Shown here: piece by piece, positions 9,618 through 16,136 of the stretch
Layout of the letters: each line of letters starts with the position of its first letter
Position numbering within the stretch: position 1 is the first letter of the stretch
Assembly (NCBI GenBank): GCA_018335925.1
Contig: JAGXRF010000018.1
Location: 156,643 to 220,642, forward strand
Length of the DNA stretch: 64,000 bases
Direction of reading: 5' to 3'
Source of the DNA: Flavobacteriales bacterium
Lineage (GTDB): Bacteria; Bacteroidota; Bacteroidia; Flavobacteriales; Flavobacteriaceae
Position numbers and translations under genes: made by a program
The notes under the pieces: model-generated
Databases searched by the model: none
The model's input: the letters and a program-made list of their open reading frames with translations, nothing else
Told to the model about the DNA's origin: nothing

Positions 9618-10892
9618 TTATAGTCCAAAAGCTTTTTGAATATCTTCTACTCGGTTTAGTTTTTCCCAAGTAAATAATTCAACTTCTACAACTTTGTCTT
9701 TTCCATCCGGGGATTTAAAAGTTTTGGTCACCACTTGTGGCTTTCTACCCATGTGTCCGTACGCAGCAGTTTCGCTGTAAATAGGTTTACGTAATTGCAA
9801 GCTTTGTTCAATGGCATAAGGACGTAAGTCAAATAATTGGGCCACTTTTGTAGCGATTTCGCTATCCGACAAACCGTTTTTTGCAGTACCATAAGTATTC
9901 ACAAAAATATTACAAGGTTTGGCAACCCCAATGGCATAACTAACTTGCACCAACACTTCGTCTGCAACTCCAGCAGCTACTAGGTTTTTGGCAATATGAC
10001 GAGTAGCATAAGCTGCACTTCTGTCCACTTTACTTGGATCTTTTCCCGAAAAAGCTCCACCACCATGTGCTCCTTTTCCACCGTAGGTATCAACAATAAT
10101 TTTTCTTCCGGTTAAACCGGTATCTCCATGCGGACCTCCAATAACAAACTTTCCGGTTGGATTGATGTGGTAAGTGATTTCATCGTGAAAATAAGGAGCA
10201 TATTGTGGGTATTTAGCAATAATTCTCGGAATTAAAATCTGAGTAATATCCTGATAAATTTTTGCCAACATTTTTTCTTCCTCATCAAAATCGTCGTGTT
10301 GGGTTGAAATGACAATCGAGTCGATTTTTATCGGTTGGTTTTGCTCATTATATTCTAAAGTTACTTGCGATTTGGCATCAGGTCTTAAGTAAGTGATTTC
10401 CTTATTTTCTCTTCTTAATGCAGCCAATTCTTGCAATAATTTGTGCGATAAATCTAAAGCCAAAGGCATGTAATCTTCCGTTTCTTTGCTGGCATAACCA
10501 AACATAATGCCTTGGTCACCTGCACCTTGTGCATTGGCTTTGGTTTCAAAATCTGCCTCATTTTTAATTCTGTCAACACCGCGATTGATGTCGTCTGATT
10601 GCTCATGAATAGCAGATAAAATACCACACGAATTGGCTTCAAACATATACTCGCTTTTGGTATAACCAATTTTTTTGATTACTTCTCTTGCAATGCTTTG
10701 TACATCCAAATAGGTGTTGGATTTAACTTCTCCAGCCAAAATAACCTGACCGGTAGTTACTAAGGTTTCACAAGCTACTTTGCTGCTTGGGTCAAAAGCT
10801 AAAAAATGATCGATTAATGCATCGCTAATTTGGTCTGCAATTTTGTCCGGATGTCCTTCGCTCACCGACTCCGATGTAAATAAATATGCCAT
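9618..10892 (-). CDS. metK: S-adenosylmethionine synthetase
   Basis: Makes SAM from methionine and ATP. The 424-residue protein has the family signatures: [21 protein letters not shown] at the N-terminus, [12 protein letters not shown], and [20 protein letters not shown] containing the P-loop-like motif. It is slightly longer than the E. coli enzyme because of insertions in the middle domain. It is transcribed divergently from metH. Its leader carries an apparent SAM-II riboswitch, which would let the product feed back on its own synthesis. Confidence 0.97.
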
Positions 10893-10944
10893 AACAAATA
10901 TTTTTTAAATGTTTGGTCTGAAAAATCGGATAAAACTGACGTGC

Positions 10945-11016
10945 AAATGCTGTAGTGAAGAACACTGATTTAGCATTTTTTACAGAGGTTGCAAGCAGTC
11001 AAATTTTTCCTCTTAC
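10945..11016 (-). promoter_or_regulatory. SAM-II (SAM-alpha) riboswitch in the metK leader
   Basis: On the minus strand the leader contains AAGAGG (11014-11009), an A-rich loop with AATTTGACTGCTTGCAA, the pairing partner CCTCT (10988-10984), an A-run, and GCTAAA (10974-10969). This order matches the known SAM-II pseudoknot (P1, loop with UUUG, UUGCAA, 3' GCUAAA). Downstream, AAATGC (+ strand 10973-10978) can pair with GCATTT (+ 10945-10950) around an AGTG/CACT stem; this hairpin overlaps GCTAAA and would compete with the aptamer. The aptamer starts almost at the predicted transcription start. The class assignment is from memory of the consensus and was not searched. Confidence 0.78.
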
Positions 11017-11026
11017 TTAGACTTTG

Positions 11027-11034
11027 CAAATTTA
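11027..11034 (-). promoter_or_regulatory. -7 promoter element for metK
   Basis: On the minus strand TAAATTTG fits TAnnTTTG. Transcription would start near 11020, a few bases before the SAM-II aptamer. The AT-rich stretch from here to 11217 holds nothing else I recognise. Confidence 0.6.
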
Positions 11035-11217
11035 CGGATAAAATTTTCTTTTTTCCTAAAGGCTTGTGAATTTTTAGATACTAAGTTATTTTGACTACAA
11101 AAAATCACTTTTATAGATTTTTGTTCTTATAAAGAATCAAAAAATAGAAAAAAAATATTAAAAAAAATCAAAATTAAATAAATTTCAGTGGATATTATCG
11201 GAATTTTAAAATTCGAT

Positions 11218-11225
11218 TATCTTTG
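11218..11225 (+). promoter_or_regulatory. -7 promoter element for the metH operon
   Basis: TATCTTTG fits TAnnTTTG; transcription would start near 11231, about 18 bases before the SAM-I aptamer. Confidence 0.6.
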
Positions 11226-11248
11226 CACAGTTCTTACAAATCTTGTTG

Positions 11249-11358
11249 GTTATCACGAAAGCTGGAGGGAATAGACCCTATGAAAGCTTAGCAACCTCTT
11301 CTGTAAAAAAGAAAAAGGTGCTACGTTCTATCTCGTTTTATTCGCGAGAACAGATAAC
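11249..11358 (+). promoter_or_regulatory. SAM-I (S-box) riboswitch in the metH leader
   Basis: The closing stem is GTTATC (11249-11254) with GATAAC (11353-11358). Inside lie the conserved S-box blocks in order: ATCACGAAAGC, TGGAGGGA, GACCCTATGAAAGC, TTAGCAACCTC and AAGGTGCTA, then a local TCTCG/CGAGA hairpin as P4. These match the SAM-I consensus closely. It precedes the split metH and metF genes, which SAM would be expected to repress. Confidence 0.92.
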
Positions 11359-11365
11359 ATATTTC

Positions 11366-11407
11366 CTCATTTCTGGATTACCAACTACTAAAAACCACAG
11401 AAATGAG
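11366..11407 (+). promoter_or_regulatory. Start-codon-sequestering hairpin (riboswitch expression platform)
   Basis: CTCATTTCTG (11366-11375) is perfectly complementary to CAGAAATGAG (11398-11407), which contains the metH ATG at 11403-11405. The 10-bp stem has a 22-base loop. It lies 8 bases after the SAM-I aptamer, so it probably works as the translational expression platform. No T-run follows, so it does not look like an intrinsic terminator. The linkage between aptamer state and hairpin is inferred. Confidence 0.6.
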
Positions 11408-12395
11408 TTTGCTTAAAGAAGCCTTACAACATAGAATTTTAGTTTTAGATGGTGCCATGGGTACCATGTTGCAACGATATCAATTTTCAGAAGAAGATTT
11501 TAGAGGAGAGATTTTCAAAGATTTTCCTCATCCATTAAAAGGCAACAACGATTTGCTTTCTATCACCCAACCCGAAGCCGTAAAATCGGTACATCGAGCT
11601 TATTTAGAAGCTGGAGCAGACATCATTGAAACCAATACATTTTCCTCCACTACCATCGGAATGGCTGATTATCATTTGGAAGATTGGGTGTATCAACTCA
11701 ACTTTCAAGCAGCAAAAATAGCCAAAGAAGTTTGTGCGGAATTTACCGACAAACCTCGATTTGTAGCGGGTTCCATCGGGCCTACCAATCGAACCGCTTC
11801 CATGAGTCCCGATGTGAATGACCCTGGATTTAGAGCAGTTACTTTTGACGATTTAAGAATTGCCTACAAACAACAAGTAGAAGCTTTGATAGATGGTGGA
11901 TGTGATGTGTTGTTGGTAGAAACCATCTTTGATACCTTAAATGCCAAAGCAGCATTATTTGCCATTGAAGAAGTAAAAGAAGAAAGAAAACTCGATATTC
12001 CTATCATGGTTTCCGGAACCATAACCGATGCATCAGGCAGAACTTTATCCGGACAAACCGTAGAAGCTTTTCTGATTTCTATCTCACATATCCCTTTGTT
12101 AAGTATCGGTTTTAATTGTGCTTTAGGAGCTGATCAGTTAAAACCTTATTTAAAGCGATTAGGAAGCATGTCTTCCTTGAGCATTTCTGCACATCCAAAT
12201 GCTGGTTTGCCAAACGCTTTCGGGCAATACGATCAAACTCCAGAGGAAATGCAAGCTCTAATAAAAGAATATTTGAATGAAAATTTGGTTAATATCATTG
12301 GTGGGTGTTGTGGTACCACTCCGGAGCATATTAAGTTAATTGCAGAAGTGGCCTCTGATTATCAACCCCGAATCGCTGAAGCTCTATGGTTATGA
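11403..12395 (+). CDS. metH: Methionine synthase, homocysteine-binding half (MetH N-terminal module)
   Basis: A 330-residue homocysteine S-methyltransferase domain that corresponds to the first module of MetH. Zinc and substrate residues are visible: [10 protein letters not shown] (Cys239) and [11 protein letters not shown] (Cys302, Cys303). [11 protein letters not shown] at residue 14 and [11 protein letters not shown] at residue 73 are also typical. The remaining MetH modules are encoded by the next gene, which overlaps it by ATGA at 12392-12395. This two-gene split is normal in flavobacteria and is not a frameshift. Its ATG lies inside a hairpin downstream of the SAM-I riboswitch. Confidence 0.95.
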
Positions 12396-15085
12396 ATATA
12401 CAAGAGAAGAGATATTTAAAATTGTCGGGTCTCGAACCTTTAGTGATTACTCCTGAAACCAATTTTGTCAATGTAGGAGAAAGAACCAACGTGACAGGTT
12501 CCCGAAAATTTCTTCGTTTAATTAAAGAAGAAAAGTACGAAGAGGCTGTCGAAATTGCTCGTGCTCAAGTAGAAGGTGGAGCCCAAATCATCGATGTGAA
12601 CATGGATGAAGGGATGTTAGATGGGGTATATGCGATGACCAAATTCCTAAATTTAATTGCTGCGGAACCTGATATTGCTCGAGTTCCGGTGATGATTGAC
12701 AGCTCTAAATGGGAAATTATCGAAGCCGGTTTAAAAGTTATTCAAGGAAAAGGAGTGGTAAACTCAATTTCGTTAAAAGAAGGAGAGGTAGCTTTTACTC
12801 GTCAAGCCAAACTCATAAAACGATATGGTGCTGCGGTGATTGTGATGGCTTTTGATGAGGTTGGTCAGGCAGATACTTATGAAAGACGTATCGAAATTTG
12901 CAAAAGAAGCTACGAAATTTTAGTAAATCAAGTTGGTTTTCCGGTAGAAGACATCATTTTCGATCCTAATATTTTTCCGGTTGCCACCGGAATGGAAGAG
13001 CACAAATTAAACGCTTTGGATTTTTTTAGAGCTACCAAATGGATCCGAGAAAACTTACCGTATGCACATGTTTCGGGTGGAGTGAGTAATGTGTCGTTTT
13101 CTTTTAGAGGAAATGACAAAGTGCGTGAAGCCATGCATTCTGCATTTTTATACCATGCCATCAAACACGGCATGACGATGGGAATTGTAAACCCGGAAAT
13201 GCTTGAAATTTATGACGAAATAGACCCCGTTTTGTTGGAGCATGTAGAAGATGTGTTGTTAAACCGAAGAGAAGATGCTACAGAAAGATTGTTGGATTTT
13301 GCAGAATCATTTAAAAATCAAAACTCCCCTCTCCTTCGGAGAGGAGCAGGGGGTGATGTAGAATGGAGAAATGGCACCATTCAAGAACGATTGACCTATT
13401 CCTTAGTGAAAGGTATAGATGAATTCATTGAAAAAGATGTAGAGGAAGCTAGATTACATGCTGCAAAACCCATCGAAGTTATCGAAGTAAATTTAATGGC
13501 TGGGATGAATGTGGTAGGAGATTTATTTGGTTCAGGTAAAATGTTTTTACCGCAAGTAGTCAAGTCAGCTCGCGTAATGAAAAAAGCGGTGGCTTATCTT
13601 CAACCATTTATTTTGGCAGAAAAACAAGGTTTTTCTGCAAATGCTGGTCGCATTCTCATGGCAACCGTTAAAGGAGATGTACATGACATAGGCAAGAACA
13701 TTGTTTCGGTGGTATTGGCTTGTAATAATTATGAAATCATTGATTTAGGCGTGATGGTGCCACCAGAAAAAATCATTGAAACTGCCATCAAAGAAAACGT
13801 CGATATCATTGGGTTGAGTGGGTTAATTACCCCATCGTTAGATGAAATGGTTTATTTGGCTAAGGAAATGGACAAATTAAACATCCAAATTCCGATAATG
13901 ATAGGTGGTGCCACTACTTCTCGAGCACATACTGCAGTAAAAATTGCTCCACAATACCAAGGAACGGTGGTTCATGTAAACGATGCTTCTAGAGCAGTAA
14001 CTGTGGCAACCAATTTGTTGCAACCCGACACCAAAACAACCTATGCTAAAACCATTAGAGAAGAATATGATGCTTTGCGAGAAGGTTATTTAAACCGAAG
14101 CAGAGAAAAGAATTTAATTTCTTTGGAAGAAGCCCGGAAAAATAAATTGCAAATAGATTGGAATAATTACCATCCGGTAAAGCCCAATTTTATCGGAATT
14201 AAAAAGATAGAAGTTGAAATATCTGAATTAGTAGATTTTATCGATTGGACTCCTTTTTTTCAGTCGTGGGAATTGTTTGGAAAATACCCTACTATACTTA
14301 CCGATGAAGTAGTAGGGGAGCAAGCCACCAATTTGTTTGAAGATGCCCAAAAAATGTTGCATCAAATGATCAATGAAAATTGGTTAACAGCCAAGGGAAT
14401 TTTAGGGATTTTTCCTGCAAATGCTGAAAATGATGACATCACACTTTTTCCAACAACCAACAACCAACCACCAACCACTTTTTTGTGTTTAAGGCAACAA
14501 TTCCAAAAAACCAAAGATTATCCAAACTTAGCTCTTTCTGATTTCATTGCTCCAAAAGAAACCGGTATTCAAGATTATATAGGTTGTTTTTGTGTAACCA
14601 CCGGTTTTGGAGTGGATGAAAAAGCATCAGAATTTGAAATACAATTAGACGATTATAATGCAATTTTGGTCAAAGCTATTGGGGATAGGTTGGCAGAGGC
14701 ATTTGCGGAATATCTCCATTTAAAAGTTAGAAAAGAAATTTGGGGATATGCTTCTGAGGAAGCTTTGAGTAATGAAGCTTTAATCAAAGAAGAGTACAAA
14801 GGCATACGTCCAGCTCCAGGGTATCCTGCCTGTCCGGACCATTTGGAAAAAGTTACTATTTGGAATGTATTGCAAGTAGAACAAGAAATAGGCGTAAAGT
14901 TAACCGAAAGTATGGCCATGTGGCCAGCTTCATCGGTTTCGGGATACTATTTTGCCCATCCGGAAAGCAAATATTTTGGTTTAGGAAAAATTCAAAAAGA
15001 CCAAGTAGAGGATTATGCCAAACGAAGAGGAATATCTGTGGAAGAAGCCAAGAAATGGTTGGGTAGTGTTTTGGTTGATAGTTGA
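12392..15085 (+). CDS. metH: Methionine synthase, folate/cobalamin/activation modules (MetH C-terminal part)
   Basis: Carries the methyl-tetrahydrofolate, cobalamin and SAM-dependent reactivation modules of B12-dependent methionine synthase. In order: the pterin-binding domain ([28 protein letters not shown]) at residues 15-290; the B12 cap and Rossmann domain with the cobalt-ligand histidine in [11 protein letters not shown] (about residue 431) at 330-560; and the activation domain ending in [14 protein letters not shown] and [17 protein letters not shown] chose ATG 12392 because it overlaps the previous stop as ATGA; ATG 12386 is the alternative. Two odd insertions look like translated intergenic repeats: [13 protein letters not shown] near residue 312 and TTNNQPPTT near residue 690. 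Confidence 0.95.
13324..13357 (+). repeat. Palindromic repeat inserted in frame within metH
   Basis: The stretch is C-rich then G-rich: CCCCTCTCC, TTC, GGAGAGG, then AGCAGGGGG, forming a CTCTCC/GGAGAG stem extended by CCC/GGG. It encodes [11 protein letters not shown] in the variable linker between the folate and B12-cap modules. It differs sharply in composition from the AT-rich gene around it. Confidence 0.7.
14450..14480 (+). repeat. CCAACAACCAAC-type repeat translated inside metH
   Basis: A CCAAC/CAACC-type low-complexity stretch encodes TTNNQPPTT in the activation domain, between [12 protein letters not shown] and LCLRQQF. The same motif class fills the metH-metF gap about 0.65 kb downstream. 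Confidence 0.6.
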
Positions 15086-15179: not shown

Positions 15180-16136
15180 ATGAAAATAACCGAACACATC
15201 CAAAAAGCCAACGGAAAATGCTTGTTTTCGTTTGAAATTTTACCTCCATTAAAAGGGCAAAACATCCAATGTATTTTTGATGCCATAGACCCATTAATGG
15301 AGTTTCAACCTCCTTTTATTGATGTGACTTATCACAGAGAAGAATACGAGTTTAAAGAACTTGAAAACGGACTTTTGCAAAAAAAGGTAGTAAAAAAACG
15401 ACCCGGTACGGTTGGTATTTGTGCTGCCATTCAAAGCAAATACGAAGTAGATGCCGTGCCTCATGTATTGTGTGGAGGTTTCACGAAAGAGGACACGGAA
15501 AATTTACTAATTGATTTAGATTTTTTAGGAATAGACAATGTAGTTGCTTTGCGAGGAGATGCTTTGAAAAACGAAATTTATTTTAAGCCCGAAAAAGAAG
15601 GCAATGCGTATGCATCGGAATTGGTAAGCCAAATCAGTAATTTGAACCAAGGAATTTATTTAGACGAAGATTTAAAAAATACTTCCAAAACCGATTTTTG
15701 TATTGGAGTAGCTGCTTATCCGGAAAAACATTTAGAAGCCCCAAGTTTGGATAGCGATATCCACTTTTTAAAACAAAAAATTAAAAATGGAGCCGATTAT
15801 ATCATCACCCAAATGTTTTTTGACAACCAAAAGTATTTTGATTTTGTTGCCAAATGTCGTCAAGCCGGAATTACCGTACCAATTATTCCAGGATTAAAAC
15901 CCATTACCACCAAAAAGCAACTCAACCTGATTCCGCATCGTTTTTTTGTACAACTACCAGATGAGTTGATCATGCAAGTAGTAAAAGCAACAAACAACGA
16001 TGTCGTAAAAGAAGTGGGCATTGCTTGGTGCATCCAACAAAGTAAAGAGTTGGTTGCAGCTGGTGTTCCGGTGTTGCATTACTACTCTATGGGAAAATCA
16101 GAAACCATTCAGCGAATTGCTAAAGAGGTGTTTTAA
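15180..16136 (+). CDS. metF: Methylenetetrahydrofolate reductase
   Basis: Reduces methylene-tetrahydrofolate to methyl-tetrahydrofolate, the methyl donor for MetH. The 318-residue FAD-dependent TIM barrel shows FSFEILPPLKG, PPFIDVTYHREE, VPHVLCGGFTKED, VVALRGDAL and the FAD/folate region GADYIITQMFFDNQKYFDFVAKCR. It is the last gene of the riboswitch-controlled methionine operon. Its final bases (GTGTTTTAA) lie in the left copy of the 138-bp duplication that flanks the fic gene. Confidence 0.96.
   Translation: MKITEHIQKANGKCLFSFEILPPLKGQNIQCIFDAIDPLMEFQPPFIDVTYHREEYEFKELENGLLQKKVVKKRPGTVGICAAIQSKYEVDAVPHVLCGGFTKEDTENLLIDLDFLGIDNVVALRGDALKNEIYFKPEKEGNAYASELVSQISNLNQGIYLDEDLKNTSKTDFCIGVAAYPEKHLEAPSLDSDIHFLKQKIKNGADYIITQMFFDNQKYFDFVAKCRQAGITVPIIPGLKPITTKKQLNLIPHRFFVQLPDELIMQVVKATNNDVVKEVGIAWCIQQSKELVAAGVPVLHYYSMGKSETIQRIAKEVF

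Follow-up and report, generated by a model that had tools for sequence, protein, structure and literature searches.

The window, a stretch of 64,000 nucleotides from the genome of a Flavobacteriales bacterium, places metK on the minus strand and metH on the plus strand, with metF behind metH. An initial annotation had given the gap between the divergent metK and metH genes as 510 bases, with which the gene coordinates agree, and had proposed that it holds two unrelated riboswitch classes for the same metabolite, a SAM-I aptamer facing metH and a SAM-II pseudoknot facing metK. This raises the question of whether both RNAs are genuine sensors of S-adenosylmethionine (SAM), how each might control the gene behind it, and whether their placement back to back has a joint function. 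Our analysis confirms the back-to-back SAM-II and SAM-I elements, and it makes it likely that both sense S-adenosylmethionine. Both are predicted to turn down their genes, metK and metH.

Two SAM aptamer classes between metK and metH

We assigned the met gene families of the window with NCBIfam. The metK gene (9618..10892, minus strand) encodes an S-adenosylmethionine synthetase of 424 aa (TIGR01034, 502.7 bits, cut-off 309.4), and the nearest named MetK among the matches listed is from Flavobacterium (F. terrigena and F. davisii, 86%). On the plus strand lie the N-terminal part of metH (11403..12395, 330 aa; positions 1-321 of the TIGR02082 profile and 11-337 of PRK09490), its C-terminal part (12386..15085, 899 aa; PRK09490 positions 340-1229, 1510.7 bits, cut-off 1497) and the methylenetetrahydrofolate reductase gene metF (15180..16136, 318 aa; TIGR00676, 308.8 bits, cut-off 293.7). 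Here, metH is two genes (11403-15085) that overlap by 10 bases, and a separate MetH N-part of about 330 aa also occurs in two relatives, at full lengths of 329 and 336 aa. The same genome carries an adjacent metX-like gene and metY on a contig other than that of metK and metH (locus L301, contig C83:31000-37000). A search for SAM-I near this pair found none, in contrast to many relatives, in which SAM-I precedes metY or metX.

We searched the whole window with cmscan at the Rfam gathering thresholds. On the plus strand, RF00162 matched a SAM-I (S-box) aptamer at 11247..11360 with 72.5 bits (E 4.9e-15, cut-off 44.4), covering the full model from 1 to 108, as the initial annotation had expected of that strand. 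The aptamer ends 42 nt before metH, in the leader of a methionine gene with metF behind it, and its P1 core pairs 11249-11254 with 11353-11358. On the minus strand, a SAM-II aptamer was correctly anticipated, although under the wrong model: RF00521 (SAM_alpha), which had been named for it, gave no match at E<=10 in 10700-11700, and RF01726, the long-loop form, matched at 10960..11018 with 68.6 bits (E 3.8e-11, cut-off 44) over the full model from 1 to 60. RF00521 likewise matched 0 of 120 family genomes, and since control genomes also gave no match, absence is not demonstrable by that search. The only other Rfam matches in the window were two tRNAs, and the 132-contig, 3.58-Mb assembly has one match per SAM class at E<=0.001.

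We then compared the SAM-II pairs across 22 sequences. P1 (11012-11009 with 10988-10985 in the window) is paired in 100% of cells, and the P2 pseudoknot (ACUG 10999-10996 with CAGU 10967-10964) in 78.4%. Twelve cells showed changes on both sides (4.1 on average in shuffles), and the covariation score was 0.208 against 0.100 in shuffles. Three of the five covariation measures lay above every shuffle and two did not; neither the count of doubly changed pairs (3, with 2.3 in shuffles; 207/500) nor that of further pair types (6, with 6.5 in shuffles; 407/500) was in excess. With covariance matches, the SAM-II stem and pseudoknot in relatives, and conservation within the family, the proposal that the divergent metK and metH genes carry SAM riboswitches of two classes is supported.

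It seems to us highly improbable that one of the aptamers is a decayed relic that has lost SAM binding. The window's SAM-II element does read GCTTGC where most aligned relatives show GATTGC, and it has GCTAAATCAGT where most show GCTAAAGCAGT or GCTAAAACAGT. However, GCTTGC is shared with four relatives (L202, L232, L281 and L166), the model consensus writes the base that precedes CAGU in lower case, the window keeps its P1 and P2 pairs intact, and both aptamers match their full models far above the curated cut-offs.

Spread of the two classes and their layout around metK

Both classes are common in the family: among 249 genomes of 235 genera, SAM-II occurred in 235, SAM-I in 199 and both in 193. 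In a class-level sample of 345 genomes, the corresponding counts were 53, 247 and 44. For comparison, the accessible text of a 2007 survey that used an older SAM-II model reports no single species with both SAM-I and SAM-II (PMC2258182). Four genomes of 1.3-1.9 Mb (G348, G396, G425 and G578) have two SAM-II copies each and are absent from the family's SAM-I matches.

We examined layout in 116 family genomes with both classes, fetching as much as 9 kb to either side of SAM-II. The sample was drawn from 192 other genomes with both classes by taking the best-scoring SAM-II rows listed, a choice that under-represents weaker SAM-II copies. The stretches were searched with models (R1, R2) trained on 20 SAM-I and 22 SAM-II sequences; their E-values are rough, and some of the training sequences recur in the searched genomes. 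In 70 of the 116, SAM-I turned up no more than about 9 kb from SAM-II, and contig ends cut 17 of the 116 stretches, 13 of them among those in which SAM-I did not appear. Every one of the 76 SAM-I matches points away from metK, with 0 in the other two orientations. Thirty-one matches in 29 genomes are upstream and divergent only, and 45 matches in 41 genomes are downstream of metK on its strand only. In 16 genomes the aptamers stand back to back within 330 bp, 12 of them at 125-150 bp; in the window they are 228 bp apart, and in four more genomes of its genus they are divergent at 1.0 to 11.7 kb.

Among named metK loci, of which we took the best 80 of 591, SAM-I is present in 14, divergent in 13 of these and close in two: 124 bp in an uncultured Polaribacter (L161) and 72 bp in a Cryomorphaceae genome (L166). 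One named locus (L127) is an exception, having no SAM-II match and an upstream SAM-I directed towards metK. In a large group (L181, L257, L245 and others; 41 of the 140 genes on the MetK tree below), SAM-II, metK and SAM-I share one strand, with SAM-I mostly about 1.4 kb after SAM-II, right behind metK. Taking the gene after SAM-I as the longest reading frame that starts within 600 nt, we found three clusters among 95 leaders: MetY/MetB-like (50/95), MetX-like (27/95) and the N-part of MetH (18/95). At L230, SAM-I is followed by an ORF of 1133 aa in which, judging from the translation, a MetX-like domain appears to be fused to an aspartokinase-like part.

The expectation that other flavobacteria keep the pair is therefore borne out only in part. 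While each class is widespread, the gap ranges from 72 bp to more than 11 kb, the gene under SAM-I may be metY/metB-like, metX-like or metH, SAM-I follows metK in a large group, and the fetched stretch lacks SAM-I in 46 of the 116 genomes.

To ask how the close layout arose, we placed the layouts on a tree of 140 MetK genes, a single-gene tree from a quick search in which 4 of 144 MetK proteins had no layout label. SAM-I after metK forms nearly one group (41/140 genes, 4 changes), and the close divergent state, present in 19 genes, is scattered and takes at least 16 changes. The tree does not support a single origin of the close divergent layout. The metK neighborhood may be old and often broken, or it may have been often rebuilt, and one gene tree cannot distinguish the two.

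These data bear on the possibility that the locus is an ordinary gene neighborhood, in which metK and methionine genes cluster, each with its own riboswitch, and meet back to back without joint function. We regard this as an evenly balanced proposition. The scatter of the close state on the tree, the 125 bp to more than 11 kb spanned by the divergent SAM-I distances, and the genomes whose fetched stretch lacks SAM-I all favor it; the strict orientation of SAM-I away from metK and the concentration of gaps at 125-150 bp count against it. Still, plain clustering constrained by promoters only is compatible with both orientation and gap clustering.

The initial annotation had set both aptamers close to a TAnnTTTG box, which we take to be the flavobacterial promoter box, and this is what the sequence contains: TAAATTTG (11027..11034, minus strand) lies 8 nt before the SAM-II aptamer in the metK leader and TATCTTTG (11218..11225, plus strand) 21 nt before the SAM-I aptamer in the metH leader. 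Of 146 SAM-II leaders, 139 have TAnnTTTG in the 40 nt ahead of the aptamer, where shuffles average 6.1, and it mostly sits 4-10 nt from the aptamer. For SAM-I, the box appears over the same distance in 38 of 95 leaders (2.6 on average in shuffles), mostly 26-29 nt ahead of the aptamer. Of 19 close pairs, 18 carry an exact box on the side of SAM-II and 3 on that of SAM-I; the window carries both, and 183 bp separate them.

The metH leader and its start codon

A search of 10850-11450 for an intrinsic terminator or terminator-like hairpin found none in either leader. What follows the SAM-I aptamer is a predicted anti-P1 strand, GATTACCAAC (11376..11385, plus strand), that can form 9 of 10 pairs with 11245-11254, the P1 5' strand and its upstream extension. 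In the window, the best duplex between the platform (the sequence downstream of the aptamer) and the aptamer 5' strand reaches -14.8 kcal/mol, where shuffles average -7.6 (z -3.25). A start-codon hairpin is also predicted at 11366..11407 on the same strand, in which CTCATTTCTG and CAGAAATGAG (11366-11375 with 11398-11407) form a perfect 10-bp stem of -12.3 kcal/mol when folded alone. The metH ATG (11403-11405) sits within the second of these strands, and the anti-P1 strand lies in the loop. The predicted minimum-energy fold accommodates the hairpin together with P1; the hairpin and the anti-P1 pairing cross, and we therefore take these two to be mutually exclusive.

We examined the same complementarity across SAM-I leaders. 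Leaving out 2 of the 95, in which the start is more than 400 nt away, the platform pairs with its own aptamer 5' strand at a mean z of -2.21 (55/93 below -1.645), and it prefers its own aptamer over the mean of others' in 79 of 93, although these genomes are related and not independent. When P1 is held in the folding calculation, predicted accessibility of -15..+6 falls beyond that of shuffled platforms in 45 of 50 MetY/B leaders and 13 of 16 MetH leaders. The MetX leaders, at only 13 of 27, are outside this rule.

For the window itself, predicted start-region accessibility is unchanged, at 0.51 and 0.51, and the modeled pseudoknot-free fold retains the ATG hairpin in both states. This is because the calculation cannot treat crossing pairs and because the anti-P1 fold is predicted to be 7.7 kcal/mol less stable than P1 with the ATG hairpin. 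Given that difference, the metH switch would need to be co-transcriptional.

We envisage the following sequence of events for metH. Without SAM, GATTACCAAC would displace the P1 3' strand; lying in the loop of the ATG hairpin, it would thereby hinder that hairpin and leave the start codon free. With SAM, P1 would be locked, the 10-bp hairpin could form, and the start codon would be occluded, with the choice presumably made during transcription. In F. johnsoniae, initiation is described as making no use of the Shine-Dalgarno sequence and as tuned by structure near the start (PMC6847099). That the metH output would need no Shine-Dalgarno sequence agrees with a phylum in which ribosomes make no use of it.

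The metK leader and its predicted anti-aptamer strand

In SAM-II riboswitches that act by direct occlusion, the ribosome site lies in P2 or next to the aptamer. We ruled out this mode for the metK leader, since its aptamer ends 67 nt before the metK ATG; across 146 leaders, the distance from aptamer to start is 43-127 nt, with a median of 64.5. These leaders include 25 of 38 named-locus rows (the window apart), 13 weak or split rows and a second SAM-II match of L289 having been left out, and 142 and 141 of the 146 passed the filters for the pairing and accessibility analyses, respectively. Several relatives of the genus (L288, L289, L097 and L094) have a SAM-II in which a long insert separates P1 from the AAAAATGCTAAA element, splitting or weakening the model matches.

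Downstream of the aptamer, the metK leader has a predicted anti-aptamer strand (10927..10957, minus strand) in a minimum-energy fold of -34.7 kcal/mol. In this modeled ligand-free fold, 10945-10927 would pair with aptamer positions 11011-10994, 10951-10945 with 10978-10972, and 10957-10954 with 10966-10963; P1 and P2 of the aptamer type would both be absent, and the predicted pairs are partly unlike those of most relatives. The complementarity to the aptamer 5' half can be read directly in metK leaders, for example as GTCAAATC to GATTTGAC and GCAATC to GATTGC, and post-aptamer sequence is often also complementary to GCTAAAGCAGT. Relative to shuffles, platforms pair with the aptamer 5' half at a mean z of -2.14 (87/142 below -1.645; -1.96 in the window), against -1.17 (50/142) for the 3' half. 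A leader suits its own aptamer above the mean of others' in 117 of 142, again among related genomes that are not independent. At one locus (L224), covariation is visible by eye: an unusual aptamer is mirrored by an equally unusual platform.

What would this strand do when SAM binds? With the aptamer held, mean predicted start-region accessibility falls from 0.516 to 0.468, whereas with shuffled platforms it goes from 0.469 to 0.506, and the predicted fall exceeds that of shuffled platforms in 114 of 141 leaders. The raw modeled change, which has no shuffle control, falls by more than 0.02 in 64 of 142 leaders and rises by as much in 27, and in the window it is small (0.517 to 0.495). We reject simple occlusion of the metK start upon SAM binding, as the raw change is small and of mixed sign and is consistent only relative to shuffled platforms. 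A larger predicted effect lies upstream, where the unpaired fraction of -45..-20 rises from 0.307 in the ligand-free fold to 0.525 with the aptamer held, a release greater than in shuffles in 120 of 141.

This release raises the potential that SAM-II acts on completion or decay of the metK transcript, with the freed G-poor strand at about -45 to -20 inviting Rho termination or a nuclease. In its favor, the modeled release mostly exceeds that of shuffled platforms while the start region is barely altered. Elsewhere, SAM-II leaders are predicted or described as transcription terminators, and in Sinorhizobium meliloti SAM also alters mRNA stability, according to the accessible parts of two papers (PMC9373788, PMC9481103). 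On the other hand, the window leaders lack an intrinsic terminator pattern, the base bias of the freed strand stems from its complementarity to a G/A-rich aptamer and need not mark a Rho site, and predicted start-region accessibility falls as well, relative to shuffles. We consider an action of this kind possible but unlikely.

Considerably less probable, in our judgment, is that the metK element is an on-switch through which SAM raises metK expression. In its favor, the modeled ligand-free state is a long hairpin that takes in much of the platform, and some relatives have a U-run directly behind the GCAAUC strand. We rejected a terminator made of the SAM-II anti-aptamer and this U-run because the U-run is complementary to the aptamer A-run and would lie within the helix. 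Furthermore, the window has no terminator pattern, predicted start-region accessibility drops rather than rises on binding relative to shuffles, and SAM lowers translation of S. meliloti metA (PMC9373788, from its accessible text).

We therefore return to an off-switch as the preferred reading for metK, in part by analogy with the known S. meliloti members, whose expression SAM lowers. Without SAM, the post-aptamer sequence would fold onto the aptamer 5' half. With SAM, the pseudoknot would form, the downstream strand would be freed, and the start region may become slightly less accessible.

A possible SAM hub

Building on the observed aptamer matches, their conservation and consistent orientation, and the downstream strands complementary to the aptamer of the same leader, we consider it fairly probable that SAM-II before metK and SAM-I before metH-metF work as divergent leaders: each is predicted to bind SAM and would probably lower its own gene, as an anti-aptamer helix yields to the aptamer. 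In our reading, SAM would switch both genes off without any need for a Shine-Dalgarno sequence, and SAM-I is the better supported of the two.

A more ambitious reading would make the locus a flavobacterial SAM hub, in which two unrelated aptamer folds, retained back to back in one divergent promoter region, govern two branches of the cycle through coevolved anti-aptamer strands and without Shine-Dalgarno sequences; a tight SAM-I would shut methionine supply first, and a weaker SAM-II would shut the SAM synthase last. Affinities reported in the accessible text of one paper for distant members are about 4 nM for SAM-I (Bacillus subtilis yitJ) and about 10 uM for SAM-II (Agrobacterium tumefaciens metA) (PMC1273637). 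We hold this full version to be speculative and doubtful.

Most sampled genomes of one family have both SAM folds, at times adjacent, and this constitutes a natural experiment on the reasons for retaining two unrelated RNA sensors of one metabolite. The leaders also offer an entry to riboswitch action in bacteria in which Shine-Dalgarno sequences play no part for the ribosome: for metH, the prediction is that the start codon itself becomes occluded, and for metK, that an anti-aptamer strand acts at a distance.

Comparison with known SAM riboswitches

Both aptamer families, and one SAM-II that acts at a distance, are already known in print. The divergent SAM-I/SAM-II pair and the anti-aptamer platform were not found in the accessible portion of the open-licence literature, and the accessible text of two papers (PMC12452182, PMC12121620) contains nothing on such a pair. 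The metK element belongs to the same family as the long-loop SAM-II motif RF01726 of Weinberg et al. (2010), whose table gives Bacteroidetes and marine sources (PMC2864571). There the motif is just listed, and a SAM-I partner, a divergent layout and an anti-aptamer strand go unmentioned in the accessible text.

The metH element resembles other SAM-I (S-box, RF00162) riboswitches in having a full-length aptamer upstream of methionine genes, whose P1 would compete against a strand further downstream. It differs in that a terminator was not found, in that the competitor copies the P1 3' strand and takes the P1 5' strand, and in its predicted output, which is occlusion of the start codon and not of a Shine-Dalgarno sequence. 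With direct-occlusion SAM-II (metX, 2QWY), the metK element shares the aptamer fold with P1 and pseudoknot P2; in the accessible description of the former, the ribosome site is within P2 (PMC10907184), whereas here the aptamer ends well before the ATG.

The S. meliloti metA SAM-II is closer, as its aptamer is also far upstream, with 74 nt from Shine-Dalgarno to start there and 67 nt from aptamer end to ATG here. As far as the accessible text describes it, SAM lowers metA translation via a required Shine-Dalgarno sequence sequestered inside the riboswitch (PMC9373788). The window's metK leader instead has a predicted downstream anti-aptamer strand, in a phylum without Shine-Dalgarno use.

Finally, the locus recalls the tandem arrangements of SAM-II/SAM-V and of SAM-II with SAM-I/IV, which likewise bring two unrelated SAM folds for one metabolite to one locus. 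According to the accessible text of the paper that describes them (PMC9481103), tandems lie on the same transcript, with 149 cases of SAM-II/SAM-V, 7 of SAM-II before SAM-I/IV and 2 in reverse order. We do not class the window as a tandem riboswitch, as its aptamers are not in one transcript: each is encoded on its own strand and serves its own divergent gene.
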